Source: Superficieibacter sp. 1612_C1
GTDB taxonomy: Bacteria; Pseudomonadota; Gammaproteobacteria; Enterobacterales; Enterobacteriaceae
Assembly (NCBI RefSeq): GCF_015234305.1
Contig: NZ_JADGMI010000004.1
Location: 186,001-250,000 of the forward strand
DNA: 64,000 nt
Reading direction: 5' to 3'
Every line of letters begins with the position of its first letter. The first letter of the stretch is position 1. Below, one piece after another: positions 40,711 to 62,183 of this stretch. The translations under genes and the position numbers were made by a program. The notes beneath the pieces were generated by a model. It made no database searches and had not been told where the DNA came from. It saw nothing but the letters and a program-made list of their open reading frames with translations.

Positions 40711-41925
40711 TTATGACGACGTCTCAGCGCGTTGCGACATGATTAACGCCTGGGCGCACGCCCAGGCACTCGACCACGCCCACTGGAAGTTATATCCCCC
40801 CAGCCAGCCGGTCACATCCATCACTTCGCCGATAAAATAGAGCCCCGGCACATTACGTGCTTCCATCGTGCGCGATGAAAGCTCATGGGTATCGACCCCG
40901 CCGAGGGTCACTTCCGCCGTGCGGTAGCCTTCCGTCCCGTTGGGCTGTACGCGCCAGGCCGTTAATACCTCTACCAGTGCCTGCTGATCGCGCGCGTTAA
41001 GCTGTTTCAGCGTAACGTCCGGGATTTGCCCTAACTGCTGTAAACACTCGACCAGCCGTTTAGGAAGGTGCATCGCGAGCGTATTTTTCAGGCTTTGATT
41101 AGGATGCGCCGCACGTTGTTCATTCAGGAAGCTCTCCAGGTCGCAATCCGGCAACAGATTAATACTGACAAACTCGCCGGGTTGCCAGTAGCTGGAGATT
41201 TGCAGCACCGCCGGGCCTGAAAGCCCCCGGTGGGTAAACAGCAGGCTTTCGCGGAACAGCGTGCCGTCCTGCGCGGTAATGACTGACGGCACCGAGACGC
41301 CGGAAAGCGTCTGTAACGGCTCCAGCAGCGGTTTATGCAGGGTAAAGGGAACCAGCCCGGCGCGCGTCGGCAGCACCTTCAGACCGAACTGCTCCGCGAT
41401 TTTATAGCCAAAAGGAGACGCGCCCAGTCCCGGCATCGAAAGGCCGCCGCTGGCGATAACCAGTTGTCTGGTCGCAACCGCATCGCCGTTGAGTTGCAGG
41501 ATATACCCGTCGTCATCGCGTTCGACGCTCAGCACCTCGCTGCGCAGTCGCGTTGTCACCTGTCCCTTTTCACACTCCTTCACCAGCATATCGACGATTT
41601 GCTGCGCGGAATCGTCACAAAAGAGCTGGCCCAGCGCCTTTTCATGCCAGGCAATGTTGTACTTCCCTACCAGCTCGATAAAATCCCACTGGGTATAGCG
41701 TGCCAGTGCTGACTTACAAAAATGCGGGTTCTGACTCAGATAGGCGGCAGGTTCGACGTAGAGGTTGGTAAAATTACAGCGTCCTCCACCCGACATCAGA
41801 ATTTTGCGGCCCGGTTTTTTGCCGTTATCAAGCAGCAGTACACGGCTTCCGGCCTGGCCTGCCGTGGCCGCACAAAACATTCCTGCGGCACCCGCACCGA
41901 TAACAATGGCATCAAACCTTTCCAC
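40711..41925 (-). CDS. yhiN: HI0933-family flavoprotein YhiN
   Basis: Predicted FAD-dependent oxidoreductase of 404 residues with dinucleotide motif IGAGAAGM near residue 9, GRKILMSGGGRCNFTN and the C-terminal GEVMDVTGWLGGYNFQWAW. A GTG at 41925 is the start, 8 bases after GAGG. The in-frame ATG at 41982 would add a 19-residue tail not seen in E. coli YhiN. Function not established. Divergent from pitA. Confidence 0.92.
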   Translation of the reverse strand: MERFDAIVIGAGAAGMFCAATAGQAGSRVLLLDNGKKPGRKILMSGGGRCNFTNLYVEPAAYLSQNPHFCKSALARYTQWDFIELVGKYNIAWHEKALGQLFCDDSAQQIVDMLVKECEKGQVTTRLRSEVLSVERDDDGYILQLNGDAVATRQLVIASGGLSMPGLGASPFGYKIAEQFGLKVLPTRAGLVPFTLHKPLLEPLQTLSGVSVPSVITAQDGTLFRESLLFTHRGLSGPAVLQISSYWQPGEFVSINLLPDCDLESFLNEQRAAHPNQSLKNTLAMHLPKRLVECLQQLGQIPDVTLKQLNARDQQALVEVLTAWRVQPNGTEGYRTAEVTLGGVDTHELSSRTMEARNVPGLYFIGEVMDVTGWLGGYNFQWAWSSAWACAQALIMSQRAETSS

Positions 41926-42155
41926 AGCAACATCCTCTCTCAAATCAGGGCGTGAATTGTAAAGATTACCCAGTGGTCGCACCAGCGTAAAAATGCGCTG
42001 TATCCATCATTTCATTGAAATCTATAAGATAAATCTTTAGCACGATCTGACAAAGCACGACTAATATCAAAAAAAGGCTATATTTCACTTTGCCCGCGCC
42101 GCCAAAGTCACTGATAATGCGCCGCGTTCATGTCCTCAAAATGGCGTAACGTCCT

Positions 42156-43652
42156 ATGCTACATTTGTTTGCTGGTCTTGATTTCCATACGGGCCTTTTG
42201 TTATTGCTTGCTCTGGTTTTTGTGCTGTTTTACGAAGCCATCAACGGCTTCCATGACACTGCGAATGCTGTTGCAACCGTGATTTATACCCGTGCAATGC
42301 GCTCGCAACTCGCGGTGGTCATGGCTGCGGTATTTAACTTTTTCGGCGTTCTGCTCGGCGGATTGAGCGTGGCCTATGCGATTGTGCATATGCTGCCAAC
42401 CGATCTGCTACTGAATGTCAGCTCCGCTCACGGCCTGGCGATGGTTTTCTCCATGCTGCTGGCGGCTATCATCTGGAACCTGGGGACCTGGTATTTTGGT
42501 TTGCCGGCCTCCAGTTCTCATACCCTGATTGGCGCAATCATCGGCATTGGTTTAACCAACGCATTGATGAGCGGTACATCGGTGGTCGATGCGCTCAACA
42601 TTCCCAAAGTTATCAACATCTTTGCCTCGTTGATTGTGTCTCCCATCGTTGGCCTGATCTTCGCAGGGGGCCTGGTGTTTATTTTGCGTCGCTACTGGAG
42701 CGGCACCAAAAAACGCGCCCGTATCCACCTGACGCCAGCCGAACGTGAAAAGAAAGACGGGAAGAAAAAACCGCCGTTCTGGACGCGTATCGCGCTGATC
42801 CTGTCCGCCATTGGCGTGAGTTTTTCTCACGGTGCGAATGACGGACAGAAAGGGATTGGCCTGATTATGCTGGTACTGATTGGCGTTGCGCCTGCGGGAT
42901 TCGTAGTTAACATGAATGCCTCTGGCTACGACATTACCCGTACTCGCGACGCGATCAATAACGTAGAAGTCTATTTCCAGCAGCATCCGGACTTCCTGCA
43001 AAAAGCGATCGAAAAAGAGCCGGCGATTCCGACGCCGGAACAAACCGGTAACAAGCCGGCCGAGTTTCATTGCCATCCTGGCCTGGCGATTAACGCGCTA
43101 AACCGCGCTAAAACGATGCTGGGCGACATTGATAACTACGATAAGCTTCCGGTAGAGCAACGTAGCCAGCTGCGCCGCATCATGCTGTGTATTGCGGATA
43201 CAACCGATAAAGTCGCTAAGATGCCGAATGTCAGCGCTGACGATCAGCGTCTGCTCAAAAAGCTGAAAGGCGATATGCTCAGCACCATTGAGTATGCCCC
43301 TATCTGGATCATCATGGCCGTCGCGTTAGCGCTGGGTATTGGTACCATGATTGGCTGGCGACGTGTTGCCACCACTATCGGTGAAAAAATCGGTAAAAAA
43401 GGCATGACCTATGCACAGGGCATGTCCGCTCAGATGACGGCAGCGGTCTCCATCGGGCTTGCCAGCTATACCGGCATGCCGGTTTCCACCACCCACGTTC
43501 TCTCATCCTCCGTGGCGGGGACGATGATCGTAGACGGTGGCGGTCTGCAACGCAAAACCGTGACCAGCATATTGATGGCGTGGGTCTTTACGCTTCCAGC
43601 CTCAATCCTGCTGTCGGGCGTACTGTACTGGCTGGCCTTGCATATCATTTAA
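42156..43652 (+). CDS. pitA: Low-affinity phosphate/metal-phosphate transporter PitA
   Basis: Proton-coupled importer of phosphate as metal-phosphate complexes, 498 residues with about ten helices in two inverted repeats. The PiT signatures are [11 protein letters not shown] near the N terminus and [12 protein letters not shown] near the C terminus, with [10 protein letters not shown] in the middle. Followed by an intrinsic terminator. Confidence 0.97.
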
Positions 43653-43676
43653 CGGCGGGTATTGCAGAAAACAGAA

Positions 43677-43706
43677 GCGGGTCAGGAAACTGGCCCGCTT
43701 TTTTTT
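43677..43706 (+). terminator. pitA terminator
   Basis: Stem GCGGGTCAG pairing with CTGGCCCGC around a GAAA loop (one T-G wobble), then eight T residues. It lies between the convergent pitA and uspB genes; the opposite side has only a weak T-rich run, so it works mainly for pitA. Confidence 0.9.
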
Positions 43707-44041
43707 CAGTGCCAAATCATCAACGCGATCAGACTGACCACCACCAGCCCACACAAAAAGCTGGTCAAAATAAACTGTCCGCGCACGCGTTCACAGCGGC
43801 GGATAAACTCATCATCATGATGATCAAGGTAGCGTTGAGCATAGATATACCACACCAGTCGCACCTGCTTGCCGGGCTGACCGTGAGACGTAAAGAAACC
43901 GCCACCATCGACGTACTGGTAAAGCAAAGGGTCACAGCCGCGTAATACCACTAACAGCGCACGCAGGGATGAAAAATAGCGTGCCATGTTAACAACACAA
44001 ACAACACATAGAGCCCAAAAAAGCGCGATGGTGCTGATCAT
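43706..44041 (-). CDS. uspB: Universal stress protein B (UspB)
   Basis: Small inner-membrane protein of 111 residues with two hydrophobic helices, one at each end, and the conserved [15 protein letters not shown] segment. In E. coli it is sigma-S dependent and needed for ethanol resistance in stationary phase. The start at 44041 gives the E. coli length; an ATG 57 bp upstream is in frame. Divergent from uspA. Confidence 0.94.
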
Positions 44042-44433
44042 ACCGCCTCCCCGGCAATTACCCACCGTTAAAGCCTGCGGGCAATCGCTCCCCAACATAC
44101 GGACAAAGAGTTCATTGAAAGAGTGAGAAACCGATCACGTTTATTTATCCGACCGGCTCATTAAATAGTGTAGGAGATCAGTTAATTTTTTTACCATAAC
44201 GTTAACCATTATCAATGCAATTGTCTGAAAATTTTGTTCAACTTTGAGTTGAGCAAGCGACATTGACGAAGGACCTGGTGCGCTATAAGGTAGGATCATC
44301 CTCTACACCAGGCTTCTAAAGGCAGGGCTTATTCATCCCGCGCGTGTAGTACGCAGGACGCGGAACAAGACAGCCAGCGACAGCAGGCGGTCCGGCCCAC
44401 TGGTCATCGACAACTTATGGAAGGAGTAACACT
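44042..44433. other. uspB-uspA divergent control region
   Basis: 392 bp without a gene. It is AT-rich around 44160-44240 and contains a candidate uspA promoter at 44263-44289. The remaining part should hold the uspB promoter and the uspA leader; no further elements could be defined by eye. Confidence 0.6.
44263..44289 (+). promoter_or_regulatory. Candidate uspA promoter
   Basis: TTGACG (44263-44268) and TATAAG (44284-44289) with a 15-bp spacer lie about 145 bp before the uspA start. The short spacer suggests activator or ppGpp dependence, known for E. coli uspA. By-eye call. Confidence 0.4.
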
Positions 44434-44871
44434 ATGGCTTACAAACACATTCTCATTGCGGTTGACCTGTCTCCAGAAAGCAAAGTGCTGGTAGACAAAG
44501 CGGTATCCATGGCGCGTCCTTACGATGCAAAAATTTCCCTGATCCATGTGGATGTTAACTACTCCGATCTATACACCGGTCTGATTGATGTGAACCTCGG
44601 CGATATGCAAAAACGCATCTCTGAAGAAACGCATCATGCCCTGAGTGAACTCTCCGCCAATGCCAACTACCCTATCACCGAAACCCTGAGCGGCAGCGGC
44701 GATCTGGGTCAGGTGCTGGTTGATGCGATTAAAAAATATGACATGGACCTGGTCGTTTGCGGCCATCATCAGGATTTCTGGAGCAAACTCATGTCATCTG
44801 CTCGCCAATTGATTAATACCGTGCATGTCGACATGCTGATCGTCCCGCTGCGCGACGAAGAAGACGAATAA
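44434..44871 (+). CDS. uspA: Universal stress protein A
   Basis: Cytoplasmic stress protein of 145 residues, the UspA fold from [16 protein letters not shown] to [12 protein letters not shown]. It lacks the ATP-binding G-2x-G-9x-G pattern, as does E. coli UspA. AAGGAG precedes the ATG. Induced by growth arrest in E. coli. Followed by a strong terminator. Confidence 0.96.
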
Positions 44872-44889
44872 AACTGCACTTTGCCAACA

Positions 44890-44918
44890 AAAAACTGCGG
44901 CGGGTCCGCAGTTTTTTT
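44890..44918 (+). terminator. uspA terminator
   Basis: ACTGCGG pairs with CCGCAGT (44894-44911) and seven T residues follow; an A-rich run precedes the stem. Typical Rho-independent terminator. Confidence 0.9.
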
Positions 44919-45037
44919 ATGCCTGCCTTTCCCCCGTTTCTCCTGCTAACGCCTTAATTTTCTCTTCGCCACCACGCCTTCGCATTGCTTATTTCACCAT
45001 TAAATAACAATCATCAAACACACTAAAAACACAAACA

Positions 45038-45082
45038 TGCACGTAAATGCATTAAAAATATTAATAAACGCATTTACGCGCA
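45038..45082. repeat. Upstream inverted repeat of the hexitol operon
   Basis: TGCACGTAAATGC (45038-45050) and GCATTTACGCGCA (45070-45082) are inverted repeats matching at 12 of 13 positions across a 19-bp AT-rich loop. Its half-site shares ATGC and CGCG elements with the two larger palindromes in the island but in a different order. A regulator-binding site is plausible. Confidence 0.55.
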
Positions 45083-45185
45083 CTATTAATTGATTAATTA
45101 ACCATCAACCCCGAAGTGCGATCCTCTACGCAAAATAAATGAAAAAATGTAATTCATTGAATTATAAAGAATAATACATTTATGA

Positions 45186-45201
45186 TGTGATTTACCTCGC
45201 A
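45186..45201 (+). promoter_or_regulatory. CRP-like site upstream of the hexitol operon
   Basis: TGTGA-TTTACC-TCGCA matches the CRP consensus TGTGA-N6-TCACA with one mismatch. It lies about 150 bp before the first gene, suiting catabolite control of a PTS operon. Confidence 0.45.
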
Positions 45202-45223
45202 TATTAAGATCCTCTTCGTAGTC

Positions 45224-45270
45224 AATGCGTTTTTCTGCGCATAAATTACAAACGCGCACAAAAACGCATT
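45224..45270. promoter_or_regulatory. Long palindrome, probable operator of the hexitol operon
   Basis: Arms AATGCGTTTTTCTGCGC (45224-45240) and GCGCACAAAAACGCATT (45254-45270) match at 16 of 17 positions around a 13-bp centre. A palindrome of the same design and nearly the same span precedes the opposing operon at 52401-52447. The DeoR-type regulator in between is the natural candidate to bind both. Confidence 0.65.
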
Positions 45271-45350
45271 TATTCCTGGCAAGCATGCCACGTTACGTAC
45301 CCGCGCCGTGGCATGTGCAAACCAACGTAAAAACAGTGAGAGAAAGAAAA

Positions 45351-46160
45351 ATGGATCAAGCAATAAAGTGGTTGGATCTTTCCGGAAAAGTGGTGATTGT
45401 GACCGGCGGCAGCATGGGTCTTGGCGAAAAGATGGTTGAAAACCTGCATGCCAATGGCGCAATCGTGGTGTATGCCGACCTCGCACCTAACGCCGCGTTT
45501 AGTCAGATTGACGGTATCACCTATATCAAATGCGATGTGACCAAAAAAGCAGAAGTCGAGCAGCTTGCCGCTAGCGTGGTCAAGAAATTTGGTCATATTG
45601 ACGGACTGGTCAACAACGCAGGCGTCAGCCGCCCGCGCCTGCTGGTGGATGTCTTCAAACAAAAACCGGAATATGAGCTGAGCGAAGATGACTTCGACTT
45701 TATGGTGAATGTTAACCAGAAAGCGGTCTATCTCGTCTCCCAGGCCGTCGCCCGTCAAATGGTCGAACAGGAGTCCGGCGTGATTATCAATATGACCTCT
45801 GAGGCTGGCGTTCAGGGTTCACGCGGCCAGAGCTGCTACTCTGCAACCAAAGCCGCCGTTAACGCCTTTACCTTCGCCTGGGCAAAAGAGCTGGGGCCGT
45901 ACAATATCCGCATCGTTAGCGTTGAACCCGGCATTAACGTCCCTACCCCGATGAACAGCGAAGCGAATTTCCGTGCGCTGGCCTATACCCGCGGCACCGA
46001 TCCTTCCCACGTGCATAAAGACTACAAAGGCATTATTCCACTGGGACGCCCTGGCAAGCTGGAAGAGATTGCCGATCTTATTTCTTACCTGGTCTCTGAT
46101 CACTCTTCTTATATCACGGGCTCGGTCGTCAATATCACTGGCGGTAAATCACATCATTAA
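45351..46160 (+). CDS. Sorbitol-6-phosphate dehydrogenase-like SDR
   Basis: Short-chain dehydrogenase of 269 residues: TGGSMGLGE near 19-27, NNAG near 87 and the catalytic CYSATKAA motif. It resembles Klebsiella SorD (sorbitol-6-phosphate 2-dehydrogenase) in details such as VNNAGVSRPRLLVDVF and SYITGSVVNITGGK. First gene of the operon; GAGAGAAAG precedes ATG 45351. An upstream in-frame ATG at 45225 lies inside the palindrome and is rejected. Likely oxidises an imported polyol phosphate to a ketose phosphate. The exact substrate is unknown. Confidence 0.8.
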   Translation: MDQAIKWLDLSGKVVIVTGGSMGLGEKMVENLHANGAIVVYADLAPNAAFSQIDGITYIKCDVTKKAEVEQLAASVVKKFGHIDGLVNNAGVSRPRLLVDVFKQKPEYELSEDDFDFMVNVNQKAVYLVSQAVARQMVEQESGVIINMTSEAGVQGSRGQSCYSATKAAVNAFTFAWAKELGPYNIRIVSVEPGINVPTPMNSEANFRALAYTRGTDPSHVHKDYKGIIPLGRPGKLEEIADLISYLVSDHSSYITGSVVNITGGKSHH

Positions 46161-46191
46161 TCACTCATTATCATAAGAAATGGAGCCGACC

Positions 46192-47661
46192 ATGGGGAAC
46201 AATCGAATTGCCAATAGCCCTACGTTAGCGAAAATTAGAAAGTTCGGTGGAGTTATGAGCGGCATGGTTATGCCGAATCTGGGTGCATTTGTCGGATGGG
46301 GATTAATGGCCGCCATTTTTATTCCAAATGGCTGGTTCCCCAATGAAAAATTAGGAGAGATGGTCGGCCCAATCCTGAATTATCTTTTTCCATTATTGAT
46401 TGGCTACACAGCAGGATACAACATTCACGGTCAGCGTGGCGGGGTCATTGCCGCCTTCGCCACCATGGGCGTCATTGTGGGCTCTAACATTACGATGATC
46501 AGTGGTGCGATGGTCATGGGGCCGCTCTCCTCCTGGCTGTTGAAGAAATTCGATCAGAAAGTGCAGCCCAAAATTAAACCCGGCTTTGAAATGTTCGTGA
46601 ATAATTTCAGCCTGGGGATCATAGGTCTGCTGTGCGCGATTTTTGCTTACATGACCGTTGGGCCAGTGATCCGTCTGCTGATCGTGATTATTACATCAGG
46701 CGTTAACTGGTGTACTACCCATAACCTCCTGCCGCTGCTGTCTGTCTTTATGGCTCCGGCCCAGGTGCTGTTCCTTAACAACGTCGTTAACCACGGTATC
46801 CTTGCCCCGATCGGTTTTGCGCAGGTTCCTGAACTGGGTAAATCGATCATGTTCCTGGTGGATACCAACAACGGTCCATTGCTGGGAACGCTGATGGCTA
46901 TCGCCCTTTTCGGACGTGGACGCGCTAAAAAGACCGCACCGATGGCAATGTTCATTGCCGGGATTGCCGGGATTGGTGAAGTTTACTTCCCCTTCGTGCT
47001 GGCAAACCCGCTGTTGGTCTTCGCCACCATGGGTGGGCTGGCGGTCTCGCTGTTCCTGCAAGTGATTATGGGTGGCGGCCTGATTGGCGTAGCGTCTCCG
47101 GGCAGCTTGATCGCTATCGCGATGATGACACCGAAAAGCGCTATTATCGCCAACCTGGTTTCGATTAGCGCGGGCTTTATCGTCTCCTGCACGCTTGGCT
47201 GGCTGCTGTTGAAAATCAGCCCCGGCTCAGAAGATGGCGAAGAAGAGGATCCTGTTATTGTCGGTGGTCGTCAGGTGAAATCCGTCACGGATTTTGTACC
47301 GGGCATGGCAACACCGACTTCTGCACCTGCGACGGTAAGGAAAAGCATCCAGCGAATACTTGTCGCCTGCGATTCCGGCATGGGTTCCAGCGCCATGGGA
47401 GCATCGGTACTGCGAAAACGGCTGAAGGAAGAAAATCTCGACACCATCACCGTTGTTAATGATTCCGCTAATCGGGTGGGCAAAGATTACGACATTGTTA
47501 TTACCCTCTCCGGGTTGCTCGAACGCGCGAAACTTAGCTGCGAAAATGCGAATACGGCGTTTATCACTGTTAATAACTTTATTAAGTTAAGTGATTACGA
47601 TGAAACCGTTGCATTTATCAAGCAACGCAATCAGGCGGCGAATCAGGAAGCAACAACATGA
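46192..47661 (+). CDS. Mannitol-type PTS permease, IIC-IIB domains
   Basis: Membrane permease of 489 residues homologous to MtlA/CmtA. The IIC domain has family motifs NNVVNHGI and ASPGS. The IIB domain has the phosphorylated Cys393 in VACDSGMGSSAMG. Unlike MtlA there is no fused IIA; that domain is the next gene. The MtlA motif G-I-H-E reads G-I-G-E at 260-263, so the substrate site differs. ATG 46192 follows GGAG by 6 bases; an ATG 12 bp upstream overlaps that site. Imports and phosphorylates a hexitol, probably not mannitol. Confidence 0.85.
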   Translation: MGNNRIANSPTLAKIRKFGGVMSGMVMPNLGAFVGWGLMAAIFIPNGWFPNEKLGEMVGPILNYLFPLLIGYTAGYNIHGQRGGVIAAFATMGVIVGSNITMISGAMVMGPLSSWLLKKFDQKVQPKIKPGFEMFVNNFSLGIIGLLCAIFAYMTVGPVIRLLIVIITSGVNWCTTHNLLPLLSVFMAPAQVLFLNNVVNHGILAPIGFAQVPELGKSIMFLVDTNNGPLLGTLMAIALFGRGRAKKTAPMAMFIAGIAGIGEVYFPFVLANPLLVFATMGGLAVSLFLQVIMGGGLIGVASPGSLIAIAMMTPKSAIIANLVSISAGFIVSCTLGWLLLKISPGSEDGEEEDPVIVGGRQVKSVTDFVPGMATPTSAPATVRKSIQRILVACDSGMGSSAMGASVLRKRLKEENLDTITVVNDSANRVGKDYDIVITLSGLLERAKLSCENANTAFITVNNFIKLSDYDETVAFIKQRNQAANQEATT

Positions 47662-48086
47662 ATGAAATTTTCTCTCTAAAAAACATTGTCCTCAATGCCA
47701 AAGCTGACGATAAATTTGCCGCAATAACGTTAACCGGGGAAGTTTTAAAACAGAATGGTTATATCACTGAGCGATACATTGAAAGAATGAAGCTCAGGGA
47801 GGAAATAGTTTCAACGTATCTGGGGAATGGATTAGCGATCCCTCACGGTACGGATGGCTCAGACTGTGAAATCATTAAAACCGGGATCTCGTTAGTGCAG
47901 TTTCCTGATGGCGTCGACTTTGGTGATGGAAATACTGCATATATAACCATTGGTATTGCTGGCAAGGAGGGTGAACATATGGACTTACTGAATAAAATCG
48001 CCCTTATATGTATTGAAGAAGAGAATGTTATGGCGTTACGTAATGCCACATCATCAGAACAAATTTTACAAGTCCTGAACTTATAA
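47658..48086 (+). CDS. Mannitol-type PTS IIA protein
   Basis: Cytoplasmic phosphotransfer protein of 142 residues of the fructose/mannitol IIA family. The active His63 lies in GLAIPHGTDG. It overlaps the IICB gene by ATGA. It takes phosphate from an HPr, possibly the one encoded at 50012, and gives it to IIB. Confidence 0.88.
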   Translation: MNEIFSLKNIVLNAKADDKFAAITLTGEVLKQNGYITERYIERMKLREEIVSTYLGNGLAIPHGTDGSDCEIIKTGISLVQFPDGVDFGDGNTAYITIGIAGKEGEHMDLLNKIALICIEEENVMALRNATSSEQILQVLNL

Positions 48087-48123
48087 GATATACTCGTTAT
48101 TCTTTGAATAACATGAGTATGTA

Positions 48124-48825
48124 ATGATGAAGGCAGCCAGACAAGACATTATTCTTCAGATACTTGAAAAAGAAAAAAAGATCGTTGCCAGTAAATTAAG
48201 TGAGCGCCTGAAGGTTTCTGAAGATACCGTAAGGCGCGACTTAAATGAACTTGCAAACCAGGGATTAATTCGACGCGTACACAGTGGCGCAATACGCGTT
48301 GGCCCGGCAGTCACTGACTTTAATGTCAGGCAGGATCTCAACATTAATGAAAAGGTTAAACTTGCAAAGAAAGCAGTGCATTTAATCAAAGAGAATAGTG
48401 TCATTCTGATTGATGGAGGAACAACCAATTACGAATTAGTTAAACAAATACCTAAAGATATAAAATGTACAGTTGTCTCCAACAACATTCCTATTTTGCA
48501 CTTACTCAGTGATTATCAAAATGTGGAAGTTATCGGTTTAGGCGGCAGGCTTTACAAAAACTCTTTAGTATTAATTGGTGCAGAAACCATCCGTGAACTG
48601 GCCGCTATTCGTCCCGATATCTATTTTATGGGCGTCGCCCATGTTGATAGCGAAGTCGGCGTAACCATTCCAGGACTGGATGAGTGCTACACCAAACAAA
48701 AAATGGCTGAGGTCTCGAATGAAGTTGCCATCCTTGTAACTGAAGAAAAACTTGAGACCAGGTCTAATTTCGTTGTGTCCTCACTCAAGGATATCACTCA
48801 TATATTCACGAGTAAGGACATCTAA
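48124..48825 (+). CDS. DeoR/GlpR-family transcriptional regulator
   Basis: A 233-residue repressor-type protein. The N-terminal winged helix contains KLSERLKVSEDTVRRDLNEL near 19-38; the sugar-phosphate-sensing domain has IDGGTTNYELV and the GGRLY segment. More AT-rich by eye than its neighbours. It sits inside the operon between PTS and dehydrogenase genes. The palindromes at 45224-45270 and 52401-52447 are candidate targets. The start is one of two tandem ATGs (48124 or 48127). Confidence 0.85.
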   Translation: MMKAARQDIILQILEKEKKIVASKLSERLKVSEDTVRRDLNELANQGLIRRVHSGAIRVGPAVTDFNVRQDLNINEKVKLAKKAVHLIKENSVILIDGGTTNYELVKQIPKDIKCTVVSNNIPILHLLSDYQNVEVIGLGGRLYKNSLVLIGAETIRELAAIRPDIYFMGVAHVDSEVGVTIPGLDECYTKQKMAEVSNEVAILVTEEKLETRSNFVVSSLKDITHIFTSKDI

Positions 48826-48843
48826 ATATTATGAGGTATGTTA

Positions 48844-50022
48844 ATGAAACGCGTATTAATTGTAGGCGCTGGCCGCCTTGGTAAAGGCTTTGTTGGCGAA
48901 ACGTTTGATAATGCAGGCTGGAATATTTCGTTCCTGGATAAAGACCCCCGAGTCATCGACGAATTAAAAAAACATAACAAATATACCGTTCAGGTATTTC
49001 GTACCGATGACATCATCATGCATGATATCACCAACTTTAATGCATTTCTGACTGATGATAACTATTCCGTAATGGATGATTTCCTCGAATCTTCCGTTAT
49101 TATGTGCCCGCTCTACCCGGAAGATTTTCCGGCCTCCGCAGAATATCTGTCAGCCTGTTTTGAAAAGCAGTATGAAGTCGATCCTGACAAAAAAATGACG
49201 CTGATCTGCTTAACCAACAAAAACCATATTATTAAAGATATTGAAGGCTATTACCGCGACGCAATTTCTTCGCCGGAAGCCCGCGCCTGGTTTGATACCC
49301 ACGTTGCCATCCGTGACTCCATCGTTCGCCGCTCCACGGATGCCGAAACCAACTATGCCACTAACATTGACAGCACCGCCGTCGCGTCACTGCTGATTCA
49401 GACCCCGCTGTACAACGACATCAGCGATGTCGAATGGCTGGAGCCGAGAGAGCACCTTGAAATGTTGAAAGACATCAAAGTGTTCACCATTAACGGTCCG
49501 CATGCCACCACCGCCTACTTTGGCTTCCTGAAAGGTTATAAAACGATTCCTGACGCCTCTGCCGACCCGGAAATCGCCGAGCTGGTGAATGCGGTTCACG
49601 ATGTCACCATTAAAGCTGTGATGCTGGAATATCCGCAAATCACCCGTGAAGCGCTGACGGATCTTGAATATCTGCCGAAAGCGAAAAACGAACTGCCGGA
49701 TTCTATCCATCGCGTTGCCTGGGACCCCATCCGTAAACTGGCCAATCGCGACCGTCTGATGGGTGTGGCGCATCTGTGCCTGAAATTTGGCCTGGATTAC
49801 ACGCCGATTGCCAAAGCCATCGCCTGCGGTCTGGCGTATTACGCACCTGACGATAAAGCCTCAGTGGCTATTCAGCAATCGCTGCAAAGCCAGGGTCTTC
49901 TGGCGACCGCCGCAACGATTATTGGCCTGCCTCAGGATCATGAAATTACACGCTGCGTGGCGAAGCACTATACCGATGCGGCTTATTCCATCCAGCAATC
50001 TGTAAGTCACTATGGTCAATAA
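48844..50022 (+). CDS. Mannitol-1-phosphate 5-dehydrogenase-like polyol phosphate dehydrogenase
   Basis: NAD-dependent long-chain polyol dehydrogenase of 392 residues. It has an N-terminal nucleotide motif GAGRLGKGFVGE near 8-19 and the family catalytic K-x4-N-x2-H pattern in KVFTINGPH. ATG 48844 is 7 bases after GAGG. Two dehydrogenases of different families in one operon suggest two oxidation positions or two polyols. The stop overlaps the HPr gene by 11 bp. Substrate inferred only to be a hexitol phosphate. Confidence 0.82.
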   Translation: MKRVLIVGAGRLGKGFVGETFDNAGWNISFLDKDPRVIDELKKHNKYTVQVFRTDDIIMHDITNFNAFLTDDNYSVMDDFLESSVIMCPLYPEDFPASAEYLSACFEKQYEVDPDKKMTLICLTNKNHIIKDIEGYYRDAISSPEARAWFDTHVAIRDSIVRRSTDAETNYATNIDSTAVASLLIQTPLYNDISDVEWLEPREHLEMLKDIKVFTINGPHATTAYFGFLKGYKTIPDASADPEIAELVNAVHDVTIKAVMLEYPQITREALTDLEYLPKAKNELPDSIHRVAWDPIRKLANRDRLMGVAHLCLKFGLDYTPIAKAIACGLAYYAPDDKASVAIQQSLQSQGLLATAATIIGLPQDHEITRCVAKHYTDAAYSIQQSVSHYGQ

Positions 50023-50296
50023 ACACTGTCACGCACAATTTATTATCCGTAATGAAAATGGGCTGCATGCCCGGCCCGGGGCGACGTTCGTCTCGACCCT
50101 GAAGCCTTTTGCCTGTTCAGTTACGGTCGCTAACCTGTCGCGCAGCGATAAGTTTGTTAACGCCAAAAGCCTGATGGCACTGATGTCTTTAGGTATTAAA
50201 AAAGGTCATGAAATACGGGTGGAGTTTGAAGGTGATGACGCCACCGCCGCTATGGAAAGTTTGACGAGTGAAATAGAGAAAGGTTTAGGCGAATAA
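50012..50296 (+). CDS. HPr-family phosphocarrier private to the operon
   Basis: A 94-residue HPr-like protein with active His19 in NENGLHARPGATFV and a Ser53 in VNAKSLMALMSLGI, like the Ser46 region of HPr. It is a paralogue of the general ptsH product and resembles the FPr domain, so it may act as a dedicated donor to the operon's IIA. The operon ends with a strong terminator. Confidence 0.85.
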   Translation: MVNKHCHAQFIIRNENGLHARPGATFVSTLKPFACSVTVANLSRSDKFVNAKSLMALMSLGIKKGHEIRVEFEGDDATAAMESLTSEIEKGLGE

Positions 50297-50315
50297 TAAT
50301 CCCTTTTCGCCTTTT

Positions 50316-50353
50316 AACAGGTTTACCTGACAGTCGGTAAACCTGTTTTTTTT
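50316..50353 (+). terminator. Terminator of the hexitol operon
   Basis: AACAGGTTTACC (50316-50327) and GGTAAACCTGTT (50336-50347) form a perfect 12-bp stem followed by a run of T. It separates this operon from the convergent HAD gene. Confidence 0.93.
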
Positions 50354-50360
50354 GCGTTTT

Positions 50361-51017
50361 TTACCACGAATTCAGAATGAAAGGTAAGACCTCATCATGA
50401 TGATCGATAATCTGGTCCGCTAACGTAAAACGGGGATCGTGACGCTGATGCGGTGCCGGCAGTGCCAGGGCACGCATTCCGGCAGCTTTGGCGGCGATCA
50501 GGCCGTTAAGCGAATCTTCAATCACCAGACAATATTGCGGATCGGCGTCCATCATGGCCGCAGCATTGAGGAAGATTTCCGGATGCGGCTTACAATGCGC
50601 CAGCGTCTCTGCCGAGATAGCGGCCTGGAAATAATGGCGAATATTGAGCGTATCGAGGACGTTATCGATCTGACGCAGCGGTGAAGAAGAGGCCACCGAC
50701 ATGGGAATATTACGCTGGCGCAGCGCATCAAGGAGTTCGAAGATGCCGGGCACAGGTCGGGGCTGCTGGCGTATTTTGTCCGCCACCTGCCCGACGATAA
50801 GGTCGTGAACGAAAGAGAGATCGTGCGCGGGTAGCCGGTGTCTTTCATGCAGTTTGCGCAAAAACACCATTACCGGCATTCCCGTGAAAGCATCAAAATC
50901 ATCATCGACCAGCGTCAGCCCGTGACGCAGTAAATAGAACTCTTTTTCGACATCGCGCCATACTGGCTCCGAGTCGATAAGTACGCCATCCATATCAAAA
51001 ATAACGGTTATCGCCAT
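50361..51017 (-). CDS. HAD-family sugar phosphatase (YniC-like)
   Basis: Haloacid dehalogenase subfamily IA phosphatase of 218 residues. Motif I is FDMDGVLIDSEP near 7-18, motif II SVASSSP, motif III in CKPHPE and motif IV IEDSLNG. It resembles E. coli YniC (HxpB), which hydrolyses 2-deoxyglucose-6-phosphate, mannitol- and sorbitol-phosphates. Last gene of the opposing arm; it may relieve sugar-phosphate stress from dead-end intermediates (inference). Confidence 0.83.
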   Translation of the reverse strand: MAITVIFDMDGVLIDSEPVWRDVEKEFYLLRHGLTLVDDDFDAFTGMPVMVFLRKLHERHRLPAHDLSFVHDLIVGQVADKIRQQPRPVPGIFELLDALRQRNIPMSVASSSPLRQIDNVLDTLNIRHYFQAAISAETLAHCKPHPEIFLNAAAMMDADPQYCLVIEDSLNGLIAAKAAGMRALALPAPHQRHDPRFTLADQIIDHHDEVLPFILNSW

Positions 51018-51099
51018 TTCTATTCCTTACAGATAAAGAAAATGCGCCATTGTGCAGTTTGAGCACAATGGCGCAAAGAGAAGCACCGGAACGCGAACC

Positions 51100-51657
51100 T
51101 TATTCAAGATTGGCGTGAAACTGCCAAAGCGCGTCCATGTTTATTTGTCGCTTTTCGATCAGCAGGAGCGCGAGGATATCGCCCAGCAAAAGCAAGGACT
51201 GTTCAAAAAGCGAGGTCATCGGCTGGATGGAGGGCGTTTCCGAAGGCAGGTTAAGTTTGGTTTTTACCGGAATGCGAATAAACAAATCGCTGACCTCTTT
51301 CATGCTGCTTTGCGGGTTAGCGCCAATATGCGCAACTTTGGCATGAAAGGTTTTCGCTTTTCGCGCAATCCCTAACGGGAACATGCTTTCACCGCTACCG
51401 GAGCCGACAATAAGCAGATCGTTAGCGGTAATCGCCGGTTCCGTTATTTGCCCGACAATGCAGGTCTGGATACCGAGATGCGCCAGGCGCTTGGCTATCG
51501 CCTGCAAGGAGAGCAGCACCCGGCCCACGCCGACAAAAAAGACCCGGTCTGCGGATTCGATCATCTCCAGCAATTGCTCGACGCTCTGCGAAGAGACGTT
51601 GTCGAGGGTAGCGTTGAGTTCATTAATGACATGGCTTTTATTAAGTTGATAATTCAT
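51100..51657 (-). CDS. SIS-domain isomerase, 6-phospho-3-hexuloisomerase-like
   Basis: A 185-residue protein made of one SIS domain: VGVGRVLLSLQAIAKRLAHLG near 43-63 and IVGSGSGES near 83-91, like HxlB-type hexuloisomerases. It lacks an HPS partner; its neighbour is instead epimerase-like. It would interconvert 3-ulose and 2-ulose or aldose phosphates. GGAG lies 8 bases before ATG. Confidence 0.75.
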   Translation of the reverse strand: MNYQLNKSHVINELNATLDNVSSQSVEQLLEMIESADRVFFVGVGRVLLSLQAIAKRLAHLGIQTCIVGQITEPAITANDLLIVGSGSGESMFPLGIARKAKTFHAKVAHIGANPQSSMKEVSDLFIRIPVKTKLNLPSETPSIQPMTSLFEQSLLLLGDILALLLIEKRQINMDALWQFHANLE

Positions 51658-51661
51658 GCGT

Positions 51662-52372
51662 TCACTCCCTGATTTCTACCCGTGCCAGACCTTCTGCCAC
51701 CGTCTGATCGAGCGTGCGCTTGTTCTCTTTAAGCGTATGTCCGGCAACAAACAACCCCGTACTGCCGAGTACCAGATTGGTGGCACCGGCAGCAATCAGC
51801 CCAGGAATAGTGGCAAACGAGACGCGGCCATCAACCTGTATCGCGGTATCAGCCTCAGCCGCTGAAATTTTTGCACGAAGTTGCCGGACTTTTTCTTCTG
51901 CATAGGGAACCTGCTGCTCGCTTTTATCGCCAGCAAAGCCCGGATTGATAAGCATCAATAATGCGTAATCAAGTGAAGGTAAAAGGTAGTCGAGCGTGGT
52001 CAGACTGGTGGCTGGATTTAGCGCGATTCCCGCTTCCACATTCTCTTTTTTGATAAGGTTAACCAGCCTGTCGGGATGCAAAGAGGTCTCATAGTGAAAG
52101 GCAATACGTTGCACGCCGATATCCAGTACCTGTTTGATAAACCACTCATTATTGACAGACATAATATGGATATCGAAATCCAGACGGGTCTGTTTACGTA
52201 GCTGCTTAATCGTCTCCAGCCCCAGCGGCATGCTGGGACTAAAGGCGCTGTCGATAAGGTCGATATGCAACGCATCGACACCCGCCTCTTCAAGCTCCCT
52301 GACGGCATGACTTAAGTTAAGTAAATCAGCACACATCAGAGAAGGCGATAAAATGACCGATTTAAACGCCAT
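51662..52372 (-). CDS. Ribulose-phosphate 3-epimerase family protein
   Basis: TIM-barrel epimerase of 236 residues. Conserved elements are LSPSLMCADLL, the metal/catalytic strand HIDLID, DIHIMS, NPGFAG and the late acid in IQVDGR. Related to Rpe and AlsE (allulose-6-phosphate 3-epimerase). The general rpe gene lies elsewhere in enterobacteria, so this copy probably serves a hexulose phosphate of the island. ATG 52372 is chosen; a TTG nine bases upstream sits on the Shine-Dalgarno sequence. First gene of the opposing arm. Confidence 0.82.
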   Translation of the reverse strand: MAFKSVILSPSLMCADLLNLSHAVRELEEAGVDALHIDLIDSAFSPSMPLGLETIKQLRKQTRLDFDIHIMSVNNEWFIKQVLDIGVQRIAFHYETSLHPDRLVNLIKKENVEAGIALNPATSLTTLDYLLPSLDYALLMLINPGFAGDKSEQQVPYAEEKVRQLRAKISAAEADTAIQVDGRVSFATIPGLIAAGATNLVLGSTGLFVAGHTLKENKRTLDQTVAEGLARVEIRE

Positions 52373-52400
52373 TTCATTCAATCCTTAGCATTGTTACATA

Positions 52401-52447
52401 ATGCATTATTTTGCGTGTTTAATAATATTACGCGCAAAATAATGCAT
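52401..52447. promoter_or_regulatory. Long palindrome, probable operator of the epimerase operon
   Basis: ATGCATTATTTTGCG (52401-52415) and CGCAAAATAATGCAT (52433-52447) form a perfect 15-bp inverted repeat around 17 bp. The outer ATGC and inner TGCG blocks and the span closely match the palindrome at 45224-45270 in front of the PTS operon. It lies just upstream of the epimerase gene. Confidence 0.7.
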
Positions 52448-52543
52448 ATCCTATGCAGCCCGAAGTGAACTGTGATCGCGATCGAAAACAATTCTGGACG
52501 AGATTAAAATTCAATGGGTTAACGGCAGGATAAGCAGGACGCG

Positions 52544-53047
52544 TTATCCTTTTCTGGCGGCGATCCACTCCTGCACTTCAATAACAAATTCATCCGGGGC
52601 TTTACGGTACATTTTCCGCGTGAGATCGAGGATCGTGTGCTGCGACAGCGCCTCTTCCATCCGCTGCTGCGCCATGTCCATAACCGACCGCACGCCGCAG
52701 ATCCCTTCGCAGGCCCAGGCGGGAGCCTGCTCATCAAAAACAGCCAGTCGTTGACGGATTTCGCGGCACTCAAAAATCGACTTATCGCCGTCAATGGCCG
52801 TGACCACATCCAGCACCGTAATATGTTCTGCGGGCTTCGCCAGTTTAAAACCGCCGCCTTTACCTTCGGTGCTGCTCACCAGCCCGGCCTTTGAAAGCCG
52901 GGTAAAGATTTTTGCCAGATAGTCGTAAGGGACGCTTTGCAGCGCAGCAATTTCCCGGACGCTCATTTCGCGCGCGTCTCCTTTGCTGTCGACCATGCAC
53001 ATCAGGCTATGGATGCCGTATTCAACGCCTGAACTGTAAAACGCCAT
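52544..53047 (-). CDS. Rrf2-family transcriptional regulator
   Basis: A 167-residue IscR/NsrR relative: winged helix with SVREIAALQSVPYDYLAKIF near 29-48 and wing GGGFKLA near 64-70. Cysteines at 94, 113 and 117 (FECRE, WACEGIC) have spacing unlike IscR or NsrR and may bind a cluster or sense thiol stress. It is divergent from the flavoprotein at 53279 and probably controls it. Confidence 0.8.
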   Translation of the reverse strand: MAFYSSGVEYGIHSLMCMVDSKGDAREMSVREIAALQSVPYDYLAKIFTRLSKAGLVSSTEGKGGGFKLAKPAEHITVLDVVTAIDGDKSIFECREIRQRLAVFDEQAPAWACEGICGVRSVMDMAQQRMEEALSQHTILDLTRKMYRKAPDEFVIEVQEWIAARKG

Positions 53048-53278
53048 GCTTTATTCTCAGCCAAAAATTATCTTAGTTAGTGTAACGTTTTCCCGTTTAT
53101 TACGCTATAGAGGCCAGTATCACGAATGGGAGAACTATTTTTTATTTTATTAATATCAATGGGTTATTTAAATGAGATCATAATTTATCGTGAAGATCCA
53201 CGTCAGCGCTTGCGCTTTAAAACTAAGACTAATAAAATCCGAGTTAAGATTCCTCTCTAACGGTTAAGTAAAAAAGAA

Positions 53279-54481
53279 ATGCGTAAACACATTGTTATCC
53301 TCGGCGCAGGTTTTTCCGGTATGTGGTCAGCCCTTAGCGCGGCCCGACTCATTGATCTTCATCAGCAGGAAGGTATCGACGTAACGGTGATCGCGCCGCA
53401 GCCGGAACTGCGCGTTCGTCCGCGCTTTTATGAAACGCAGGTTGCCGGCCTGACGGCACCGCTTCAGCCGCTATTTGACGTAACCGGCGTAACCTTTATT
53501 CAGGGAGTGGTATCGCAAATTGCTGTTGAAAATAAAGAGGTTATTTTCAGCAACGCGGCCAGCGAAACACAATGTATTCATTACGATAAGCTGATTCTGG
53601 CGACCGGTAGCCACCTTAATCGTTCCTTTGTCGCGGGCGTTGAGCAGCATGCCTTCGACCTGGATCAAATTGAAAGCGCTGCCGTTCTGGAACAGCACCT
53701 CAACGGGCTGGCGCAGTTTGAGGAGAGCGCGGCGCGTAATACCGTTGTCGTCTGCGGCGGTGGCTTTACCGGGATTGAGATGGCGATGGAGCTACCGGCC
53801 CGTTTACGCGGTATTGTTGGCGAGAAAGCTAAGACCAGAGTAGTCGTAGTTGAACGGGGGCCAGAGCCAGGTGGACGTTACAGCCAGGCGTTGCGCGAGG
53901 TGATTAAGCAGGCGTCCGAAGAACTGGGCGTTGAGTGGATGATTAACGCAGAAGTTGAACAGATTGATGCCGACGGCGTTACCTTAAAAGACGGGCAGAA
54001 AATCGCGTCTAAGACGGTGATCTGGACCGTCGGCGTGCAGGCCAATGCGCTCACCGCGCAGATTACCGCACCGCGAGACGCTCAGGGACGCCTGCATGTA
54101 AATCGTCTCCTCCAGGTCGAAGGGTATGATGATATTTATGCCACCGGCGATGTGGCTTATGCCGCAACCGACGATAAGGGCAACCATGCGCTGATGACCT
54201 GCCAGCACGCCATTCTGCTCGGTAAGTTTGCCGGTAATAACGCCGCCGCCAGCCTGCTTGCGGTCGAGCCGCTGCCTTATCGCCAGGAAAATTACGTGAC
54301 CTGTCTGGATCTGGGCGCATGGGGCGCGGTGTATACCGAGGGCTGGGATCAGCAGGTGAAACTGACGCGAGCCGACGCTAAAAAGCTGAAGCTTTCGATT
54401 ACCAGCGAGTTGATTTACCCGCCGAAGGCGGAAAAAGCGGCGGCGTTTAAGATTGCCGATCCGTTAGCGCCGTTTGTGTAG
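53279..54481 (+). CDS. NDH-2-like FAD/NAD(P)H oxidoreductase
   Basis: A 400-residue pyridine nucleotide-disulfide-type flavoprotein with FAD motif GAGFSG at 9-14, LATGSH near 112, second dinucleotide motif CGGGFTGIEMA near 160 and the ATGDVA motif near 283. It has no redox CxxC, so it is more like a type II NADH dehydrogenase or other quinone/ferredoxin reductase. Divergent from the Rrf2 regulator across 231 bp. Substrate unknown. Confidence 0.8.
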   Translation: MRKHIVILGAGFSGMWSALSAARLIDLHQQEGIDVTVIAPQPELRVRPRFYETQVAGLTAPLQPLFDVTGVTFIQGVVSQIAVENKEVIFSNAASETQCIHYDKLILATGSHLNRSFVAGVEQHAFDLDQIESAAVLEQHLNGLAQFEESAARNTVVVCGGGFTGIEMAMELPARLRGIVGEKAKTRVVVVERGPEPGGRYSQALREVIKQASEELGVEWMINAEVEQIDADGVTLKDGQKIASKTVIWTVGVQANALTAQITAPRDAQGRLHVNRLLQVEGYDDIYATGDVAYAATDDKGNHALMTCQHAILLGKFAGNNAAASLLAVEPLPYRQENYVTCLDLGAWGAVYTEGWDQQVKLTRADAKKLKLSITSELIYPPKAEKAAAFKIADPLAPFV

Positions 54482-54742
54482 ATGTCACCTTTTTGCCTGA
54501 CGCATAGTACGGTGGAATACTGCCCGGTGGCGCTGCGCTTACCGGGCCTACAACAAGCAAAACCAGAAATCAGACACCAAACCGGATGCATGGGTAACAC
54601 GTCAAACCGGACGTATCGGTAACACCCAAACCGGACACATCGGTAACAGATTACGCCAATGAGCCGTAGGCCGGGTAAGGCGAAACCGCCACCCGGCACC
54701 GCGACAACGCGGTGGCTTGCGACAACGCGGTGGCCTGCCCCG
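54482..54742. repeat. Repeat-rich intergenic region
   Basis: Holds a REP element (54521-54552), three tandem 24-25-bp units (54578-54649, core CAAACCGGAC...ATCGGTAACA), an inverted REP (54665-54697) and two 18-bp units (54701-54718 and 54719-54736, GCGACAACGCGGTGGCTT/CT). No gene fits. Confidence 0.85.
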
Positions 54743-55492
54743 CTACGCCGTCCCCGCATAAATATCAAACCGGTGCCCTTTGGTCACGATCGCGTTCTGG
54801 GTGGCGATATTGCCCAGCGGCGGCGCATAATCCGGACGTTTGACTACCACGCGCTTGCTCGCCAGCTGACGTGCTGGCTCCAGCAGACCATCGGCGTCTA
54901 AATCCGGCCCCACCAGCGACTGAAATACCCGCATCTCCTTTTTCACCAGCGCACTTTTCTGCTTATGCGGAAACATCGGATCGAGGTACACCACCTGCGG
55001 ACGTGGCGTAATCTCCGCCAGCCCGGTCAGGCTGGAAGCATGGATCAGCTGCAAGCGCTGCTGTAACCAGCCGCCGATTTCCGCATCGGCATAGCCACGC
55101 GTCAGACCGTCGTCCAGCAACGCCGCGACCACCGGGTTACGTTCCAGCATTCGCACCCGACACCCCACCGAGGCCAGCACAAAGGCATCGCGTCCCAGTC
55201 CCGCCGTGGCATCGACTACATCCGGCAGATAATCACCCTTAACGCCGACCGCTTTCGCCACCGCCTCGCCGCGACCGCCGCCGAATTTACGCCGGTGCGC
55301 CATCGCCCCGCCGACGAAATCGACAAAAATGCCGCCAAGCTTCGGCTCATCCCGCTTGCGCAGTTCCAGGTGCTCCGGCGTCAGCACCAGCGCCATCAGG
55401 TTATCGTCATCCTGTTGCAGCCCCCAGCGGGCCGCAAGAACAGATAAGGCACCGTCTCCGGTGCCCGTTTCATCAATCAAGCAGATTTGCAC
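54743..55492 (-). CDS. rsmJ: 16S rRNA (guanine-1516-N2)-methyltransferase RsmJ
   Basis: SAM-dependent methyltransferase for G1516 of 16S rRNA, 249 residues. Motifs are [15 protein letters not shown] near 92-106 and the catalytic-site LDPMFP near 170. It lies 6 bp after prlC in the same direction, as in E. coli, and is probably cotranscribed. Confidence 0.95.
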
Positions 55493-55498
55493 GTAAAA

Positions 55499-61913: not shown

Positions 61914-62183
61914 CTACTCTTTTTCACCGAAACCGTCGGCAAAGGCTGTTTTTAGCGCTTTCATTAACTCATGCTCATCGTCACCATTACAGATAAGGTC
62001 AATCATCGTATTGCCTTTGACGCCAGCACCCAGAATACTCATCATGCCTTTGATGTGGATCTCTTTACCATTATTAACCAGCGTTAATGAAGAAGAATAT
62101 TGTTTCACAAGTTTAGCAAGAGACGCTGCTGGCCTGGCATGAAGTCCGGTGCTGTTTACTACTCTGACGCTTTGTCTAATCAT
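61914..62183 (-). CDS. HPr-family phosphocarrier of the second polyol cluster
   Basis: An 89-residue HPr-like protein with active His15 in NSTGLHARPAAS. The position of HPr regulatory Ser46 reads Gly (HIKGMMSILG). It lies between an aldolase and a dehydrogenase gene; no PTS enzyme II is in the window, although one may lie beyond the right edge. Dedicated phosphate donor by inference. Confidence 0.83.
   Translation of the reverse strand: MIRQSVRVVNSTGLHARPAASLAKLVKQYSSSLTLVNNGKEIHIKGMMSILGAGVKGNTMIDLICNGDDEHELMKALKTAFADGFGEKE

Follow-up and report, generated by a model that had tools for sequence, protein, structure and literature searches.

A conserved phosphotransferase gene set in Superficieibacter that may convert a rare hexitol to fructose 6-phosphate through an isomerase-epimerase pair

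The stretch of DNA analysed here (the window; 64,000 nucleotides of contig NZ_JADGMI010000004.1) comes from the 5.05 Mb genome of Superficieibacter sp. 1612_C1, assembled in 17 contigs, and holds nine intact genes at 45351-52372, arranged as two converging arms. Our preferred though tentative reading is that they may constitute a phosphotransferase system (PTS) catabolic regulon for a hexitol, or a close analogue, other than mannitol or sorbitol, which would end in fructose 6-phosphate (F6P) by way of an isomerase-epimerase pair. The plus-strand arm runs from a short-chain dehydrogenase/reductase (SDR) through a mannitol-type IICB, a IIA, a DeoR regulator and an MtlD-like dehydrogenase to an HPr of FruB type, and the minus-strand arm consists of an Rpe-like epimerase, an HxlB-like isomerase and a HAD phosphatase. 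All the genes named in a preliminary description of the window were found intact in their places; the DeoR regulator, missing from its list, also belongs to the set. The genes, from the open reading frames of the window and scores against NCBIfam/Pfam-type profiles, are as follows (RPE, ribulose-phosphate 3-epimerase).

45351..46160 (+): SDR polyol-phosphate dehydrogenase; NF004817/PRK06171 'sorbitol-6-phosphate dehydrogenase subunit' subfamily, 360.5 bits, cut-off 304
46180..47661 (+): PTS IICB, mannitol type; 507 bits against 589 (PRK15083) and 388 against 468 (mtlA), below the mannitol-model cut-offs
47658..48086 (+): PTS IIA, nearest the IIA end of FruB; 130 bits with PRK11109, 107 bits with PRK15083; PF00359
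48124..48825 (+): DeoR-family regulator; PF00455 and PF08220
48838..50022 (+): MtlD-like long-chain polyol dehydrogenase, distinct from MtlD; 139.6 bits against a cut-off of 404
50012..50296 (+): private HPr, FruB type; 105.7 bits with PRK11109 against 48 with the E. coli HPr model PRK10850
50361..51017 (-): HAD phosphatase; 191.8 bits against the cut-off of 191 for the hexitol phosphatase HxpB
51100..51657 (-): HxlB-like SIS isomerase, GVGRV clade; 175.9 bits against the TIGR03127 cut-off of 160
51662..52372 (-): Rpe-like epimerase, FSPSMP(L/I)G / DGR clade; under the RPE and AlsE cut-offs

The SDR scores above the curated cut-off of its sorbitol-6-phosphate dehydrogenase subunit subfamily, and the HAD protein lies right at the limit for HxpB, just above it. 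The IICB fails the score for the mannitol PTS IICBA, which is lowered here since the query is without a IIA part, and the IIC-only model was missed as well. The MtlD-like enzyme misses the score for mannitol-1-phosphate 5-dehydrogenase, and among 99 relatives its best match outside the genus is 27% identical; its K-N-H stretch, presumably catalytic, aligned with 3h2z. A second MtlD-type match in the genome lies on the same contig as the set. IIA and HPr both score highest with the FruB model, not with mannitol IIA or general HPr, which suggests that the PTS probably has its own phosphate relay. This bears out the private HPr proposed earlier, whose nearest relative is the HPr part of FruB. There are nine HPr-domain matches in the whole genome, and a further HPr-domain gene lies in the window at 61938-62177 (-), about 12 kb off and on the opposite strand. 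For the DeoR regulator, none of the 20 NCBIfam models listed reached its cut-off.

The isomerase passes the score for 6-phospho-3-hexuloisomerase (TIGR03127, RuMP_HxlB) and lacks GAGRS in the phosphate loop, reading GVGRV instead. It groups apart from the GAGRS members in a clade of 27 rows (support 100/99) separate from the seven other rows of the tree, and GVGRV occupies the first phosphate loop in 27/27 clade members, with FEQ and a C-terminal HANLE also kept. The valine of GVGRV aligns with a serine of YckF (1m3s) that we take to bind phosphate. No HxlA partner was found at window positions 41000-56000 (E 1e-4). The earlier label 'HxlB-like' thus needs qualification, as GVGRV in place of GAGRS and the separate clade set the protein apart from a typical 6-phospho-3-hexuloisomerase. 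Related loci (L numbers below) were collected by search with the MtlD-like protein or the isomerase. The isomerase tree is drawn without G694 (L075/L086, itself GVGRV), a truncated G819 copy (L107/L120), the weaker G464/G466 matches (such as L059 and L060) and GutQ, which is 18% identical to the isomerase and was included in the multi-protein alignment. Both this tree and that of the epimerase have long branches, according to a warning from the tool; L121 and SgcE are placed with uncertainty, and the gene in the L119 row is incomplete and interrupted.

The epimerase belongs to a second clade of its own. It falls under the cut-off for RPE (176.1 against 212.6 bits) and is separate from K-12 Rpe in the tree, and it likewise falls under that for AlsE, the D-allulose-6-phosphate 3-epimerase (142.6 against 271), whose clade is also separate; identity is 34% to RPE and 30% to AlsE. 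Its clade of 16 rows (support 100/99) stands apart from both and carries FSPSMP(L/I)G and DGR in 16/16 members, and the same motifs occur in the L081 and L086 epimerases, which are outside the tree. In alignment with K-12 Rpe and AlsE, the His-Asp-His-Asp positions, which we take to be the metal ligands, are kept. The designation 'Rpe/AlsE-like 3-epimerase' must therefore be qualified, since neither the score nor the clade of the enzyme is that of RPE or AlsE.

The two arms share a palindrome upstream of their first genes, as follows.

45225..45269, half-sites 45225-45244 (+) and 45250-45269 (-): palindromic putative operator of the PTS arm; 0 and 2 mismatches
52401..52447, half-sites 52401-52420 (+) and 52428-52447 (-): palindromic putative operator of the epimerase arm; 3 and 0 mismatches; fold z -4.5

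The 20-base half-site has 4 matches in the window with at most 3 mismatches, where 0.15 are expected, and 3 matches in the 5.05 Mb genome with at most 2 mismatches, all at this locus; the degenerate pattern was written from the two sites, so that its zero-mismatch matches arise by construction. The independent test used one arm, with the half-site of the SDR arm alone compared with the epimerase arm and with 2000 shuffles per genome. Shuffles as good numbered 3, 0, 0, 3 and 0 of 2000 for the window, E. coli, S. diarizonae and two congeners, three of these five genomes being from one genus. In this comparison the other half-site of the epimerase arm, which is inverted, is a poor match (5-8 mismatches). 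The preliminary description had made joint induction of the arms a point on which its reading depended; a failure of the arms to be induced together is unlikely in view of an operator-like palindrome common to both and special to the locus, as far as sequence can speak to regulation. Both arms thus apparently form one co-regulated set, and it is likely that the DeoR protein of the cluster owns and binds the operator.

The set also occurs elsewhere. A search of other genomes, as had been suggested, found it in E. coli and Salmonella diarizonae, so it is not private to its host genome. The nine-gene order is kept in two congeners and in the S. diarizonae and E. coli copies read (one E. coli stretch ends within the SDR), and other phyla hold much of the set as well, with related sets in Bacilli, Lachnospiraceae and Enterococcus raffinosus. 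The grouping of these genes therefore goes beyond chance. Selection on the protein sequences was assessed against the S. diarizonae copy for eight genes, with HPr left out: the ratio of nonsynonymous to synonymous substitution rates (dN/dS) is 0.02-0.08 in the three genes with an estimable dS (1.2-2.8, rough), and dS could not be estimated in the other 5/8 genes (dN 0.08-0.30), which is taken as saturation.

The composition of the related loci indicates which genes travel with the pair. Fourteen loci, including the window and two close congeners, were chosen for having a mannitol-type IICB and the isomerase-epimerase pair, so that only the counts of the other genes are informative. An SDR is present in 13/14 (in two frames in L116), a IIA of this type in 13/14, an MtlD-type enzyme in 7/14 (six of the window type and one, from E. 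raffinosus, nearer K-12 MtlD), HPr in 8/14, HAD in 6/14 (one weak, 28%) and a GldA-like gene in 2/14. The two polyol dehydrogenases of the preliminary description are both present in the window, but a general need for two does not follow, as the stretches read have an SDR without an MtlD-type enzyme in seven of the 14 loci and the reverse in one; two obligatory dehydrogenases are ruled out by these counts. A single polyol-phosphate dehydrogenase seems to suffice, and its family seems to be exchangeable. In five loci with an isomerase of the same clade (L061, L078, L118, L119 and L121), zinc-type MDR dehydrogenases (label by eye) occupy the place of the dehydrogenase, together with a mannose-type PTS.

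The pair also occurs beside transport genes of ABC type. In L081 and L087 it lies next to a gene of the D-lyxose-isomerase family (PF07385; under the NCBIfam cut-off), accompanied in L087 by a sugar kinase, an arrangement in keeping with the supply of a free ketose to the same pair. In L083 a ribokinase-like gene lies at some distance from the pair. Gene picking hid genes under longer overlapping frames, and a tblastn recheck revealed an epimerase gene adjacent to that of the isomerase in L081 and L086, and HxlA in L088. Three ABC/kinase loci of the Lachnospiraceae family (L080, L082 and L088) combine the GVGRV isomerase with HxlA and GAGRS-type or related isomerases, and this could be a case of two isomerases sharing a 3-ketose. 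L080 and L082 both hold, in addition, an iron-type alcohol dehydrogenase and an RpiB- and MtnA-like pair (read by eye in L080). In the enterobacterial locus L117 (1873-9613), IIA and epimerase are separated by AlsA/AlsC-like ABC genes and a further SDR, all within the operon. Two loci outside this pattern were also read by eye. L062:7568-14931 (S. electus, G468:C22) holds a mannose-type PTS, SDR and MtlD-like relatives, and DhaK/DhaL-like, HxlA-like and GAGRS-type HxlB genes, and L048:223-9360 (Lachnospiraceae) has an MtlD-like enzyme after a UlaABC-type PTS, a class II aldolase, a PfkB-type kinase and a DeoC-like aldolase; neither SDR nor pair was seen in the L048 stretch.

From the genes, their conservation, the two clades and the shared operator-like sites, we infer the reactions, the role of the repressor and the substrate as follows. 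IICB and IIA, supplied by their own FruB-type HPr, would import and phosphorylate the polyol, whose phosphate would then be oxidised by the SDR and the MtlD-like enzyme, the future C2 being the probable site. SrlD and MtlD attack opposite C2 epimers, so enzymes of these two kinds could feed one ketohexose 6-phosphate, which would not be F6P. Movement of the carbonyl between C2 and C3 would fall to the GVGRV isomerase and inversion of the neighbouring carbon to the Rpe-like enzyme, with F6P as the product, perhaps through a 3-ketose. The HAD phosphatase probably serves to drain off hexitol phosphate when it is in excess, and the DeoR repressor would bind the common palindrome and so switch both arms. 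SrlD-, MtlD- and GatD-type enzymes make 2-ketose phosphates and, should each of the three be able to supply the pair, the pair would start from a 2-ketose 6-phosphate. The preliminary description had argued for a ketose phosphate other than F6P, and its logic is supported here: F6P would need neither enzyme, and allulose 6-phosphate would need only the epimerase.

A more specific version of this scheme is possible but doubtful. The pair may be a portable module that would convert tagatose- or sorbose-series ketohexose 6-phosphates to F6P via 3-ketohexose 6-phosphates, by moving the carbonyl to C3, inverting C4 with the geometry of RPE and moving the carbonyl back. An RPE-like enzyme could invert C4 because the C3=O/C4-OH of a 3-hexulose 6-phosphate sits, from the phosphate, like the C2=O/C3-OH of ribulose 5-phosphate, and this geometry suits the present epimerase since it is nearer RPE than AlsE. 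Such a module would be used in PTS polyol operons and in ABC-type sugar operons across Pseudomonadota and Bacillota. Altritol, allitol, iditol and talitol, named as candidates earlier, may be substrates. According to PMC12193009, D-altritol turned by 180 degrees has the configuration of D-talitol, and an altritol dehydrogenase gave tagatose with less psicose, so that the case of altritol or talitol goes beyond what sequence can decide.

Several observations weigh against the hexitol regulon or its C4 version. The C4 route requires the isomerase to act twice and, were allulose 6-phosphate the ketose phosphate, the epimerase alone would suffice and the isomerase would be unexplained. The host genome has a GatZ/KbaZ-family protein, which would make a second route for tagatose 6-phosphate redundant; GatZ and KbaZ have tagatose-6-phosphate/F6P C4-epimerase activity in vivo (PMC11907403). 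Seven GVGRV loci (L078, L080, L082, L084, L085, L088 and L118) have no full epimerase gene in the stretches read, the L088 stretch showing a 33-residue epimerase match right at its end, and L061 and L119 carry an AlsE-like partner instead (interrupted in L119). In Anaerostipes hominis, L050, a mannitol-type locus outside the 14, consists of SDR, IICBA and MtlD-like enzyme without the pair in the stretch, the isomerase being on another contig.

Alternatively, allitol or D-altritol may be taken to D-allulose 6-phosphate, directly or via 3-hexulose 6-phosphate and the isomerase, with the epimerase acting as an AlsE-type C3 epimerase to give F6P. We regard this as a serious candidate that is nevertheless unlikely. 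It gives each enzyme a single action if oxidation is at C3, and it is consistent with the AlsA/AlsC-like genes of L117 and with the epimerases of L061 (50%) and L119 (64% and 49%, in two pieces), which form one clade with AlsE and accompany isomerases of the same clade as ours. However, oxidation at C2 would leave the isomerase without a role, both score and identity place the window epimerase nearer to RPE than to AlsE, and the pair lies beside a D-lyxose-isomerase-type gene in L081 and L087; we know of no enzyme of that type that takes allose or altrose. The D-allose/allulose operon alsBACEK likewise has an epimerase of the Rpe superfamily leading to F6P, whereas the present set is without a kinase, uses PTS and not ABC uptake, and has an epimerase that is not AlsE. 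Improbable is a pentitol pathway, in which arabitol, ribitol or xylitol phosphate would yield ribulose or xylulose 5-phosphate, with the epimerase as a second RPE and the SIS protein as a pentose-phosphate isomerase. The top structural matches of the epimerase are RPEs, and the arabitol cluster of Bacillus methanolicus (atlABCD) also joins a PTS to two polyol-phosphate dehydrogenases; its PTS is, however, of galactitol and not mannitol type, and the cluster table in the part of the source available (PMC6685057) has no HxlB/Rpe pair. The epimerase also scores under the RPE cut-off, its substrate loop is altered (FSPSMP(L/I)G and DGR) throughout the 16 clade members, and both genes would be redundant with housekeeping enzymes.

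Quite improbable, too, is a ketose pathway on the pattern of L-sorbose, in which the PTS would deliver a ketose 1-phosphate, the MtlD-like enzyme would reduce it to a hexitol phosphate, the SDR would reoxidise the other end and the pair would lead to F6P. The sor pathway works by just such a reductase and SDR dehydrogenase, and the operon in L115 includes a mannose-type PTS, but the reductive step is missing in the seven loci that have an SDR without an MtlD-type enzyme and the IIC is of the mannitol family. That the set is a spare mannitol or sorbitol system joined by a true formaldehyde-type HxlB from a ribulose monophosphate cluster has very little probability. The SDR and the isomerase do pass the 'sorbitol-6-phosphate dehydrogenase subunit' and RuMP_HxlB cut-offs; against this stand the missing HxlA match, the valine for the phosphate-loop serine throughout the clade, the mannitol cut-offs missed by the IICB and MtlD-like proteins and the other MtlD-type match on the contig. 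A formaldehyde/ribulose monophosphate function as such is ruled out by the lack of HxlA nearby (window 41000-56000) and the different phosphate loop: the isomerase resembles that of HxlA-HxlB in passing TIGR03127 and aligning with YckF 1m3s, and differs in its separate GVGRV clade and in having no HxlA nearby.

Curated scores and gene content rule out a mannitol, sorbitol, galactitol or allose operon and, together with the open-access literature, uphold the earlier statement that no such known pathway is matched. With the mannitol operon (mtlA-mtlD) the set has in common the IIC family, the long-chain dehydrogenase fold and PTS uptake of a polyol, and it differs in the cut-offs missed by its IICB and dehydrogenase and in the added DeoR, SDR, isomerase, epimerase and HPr. 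The sorbitol operon (srl/gut) also has an SDR of the kind that would make a ketose phosphate, a DeoR-family repressor (SrlR) and a phosphosugar isomerase gene (gutQ), but its PTS is of glucitol and not mannitol type, and an HxlB-type isomerase and an Rpe-like epimerase are found here. The galactitol/tagatose route (GatD, GatY/GatZ, KbaZ) similarly takes a hexitol phosphate to a ketose phosphate other than F6P; it employs other enzyme families, and our cluster is without a gat-type PTS, kinase or aldolase. In the open-access full-text literature, which leaves subscription papers largely outside, the gene set was not recognisably described, and the parts available of PMC7716342, PMC7702098 and PMC12503163 hold nothing on it.

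The set occurs patchily. Within the genus it is complete in 2/3 other genomes that could be searched, and the epimerase is present in 3/4, the window's own included. MtlD-like relatives (E<=1e-40) were found in 1/369 genomes of the class, which is the window's own, and close ones are 3 of the 99 relatives, all within the genus; a patchy spread is indicated by these two counts. A survey of the isomerase (E<=1e-38) gave 11/392 genomes of the window's family (one match truncated; own and congeners counted), 12/348 of the family of Anaerostipes hominis and 2/392 of the phylum of the Bacilli genome (starting genomes counted in both). Five plasmid records hold the isomerase at 60-80% identity, all from Enterococcus raffinosus. 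Among 5426 complete E. coli genomes, 14 carry the set, with 80% or more of the whole-cluster query covered at one place; at any coverage the query matched 5375 of the 5426, and 24 of the 25 rows listed correspond to a short intergenic stretch that we take to be a dispersed repeat.

The E. coli and S. diarizonae copies have one extra gene relative to the window. The three E. coli copies read all contain a glycerol-dehydrogenase-like gene (broken in one) and end beside rsmJ, one of them with dtpB on the other side. In S. diarizonae the set lies between an NADH-dehydrogenase-like gene and rsmJ, and in the window between uspA and an Rrf2-type gene, two genes short of rsmJ. The copies thus occupy the same chromosomal region, with an insertion point that is not identical in the window, and the region is a variable site. 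The Rrf2/NADH-dehydrogenase-like pair (window 52544-54481) is on the opposite side of the cluster in S. diarizonae (L047). There, a dtpB-like gene (label by eye) lies between uspA and this pair, and one is annotated beside the cluster in one E. coli; it is not among the frames listed for window 44434-45351.

Other features of the locus are the following.

50316..50347 (+): terminator-like hairpin between the convergent arms; 12-pair stem, T tail
51043..51075 (-): terminator-like hairpin between the isomerase and HAD genes; 13-pair stem
45186..45201 (+): weak CRP-like site upstream of the SDR operon; one mismatch to TGTGA-N6-TCACA
52471..52486 (+): weak CRP-like site upstream of the epimerase arm; two mismatches

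The hairpin at 51043..51075 may lower expression of the HAD gene; promoter and terminator scan counts in the region are close to those of shuffled sequence. The CRP sites, one per promoter, were given no weight, as their number in the window is at chance (18 against a mean of 20 in shuffles).

Our results suggest that two enzyme clades annotated as 'hxlB' and 'ribulose-phosphate 3-epimerase' probably do neither job. The proposed pathway with both clades is found in some E. coli and Salmonella, in Enterococcus raffinosus and in gut Clostridia, where the set most likely enables gut bacteria to import a rare sugar alcohol and turn it into F6P by the isomerase-epimerase pair. If the C4 route is true, it would constitute a kinase- and aldolase-free path from rare hexitols and ketoses into glycolysis, and would bear on the gut fermentation of rare sweeteners and on the enzymatic production of rare sugars.

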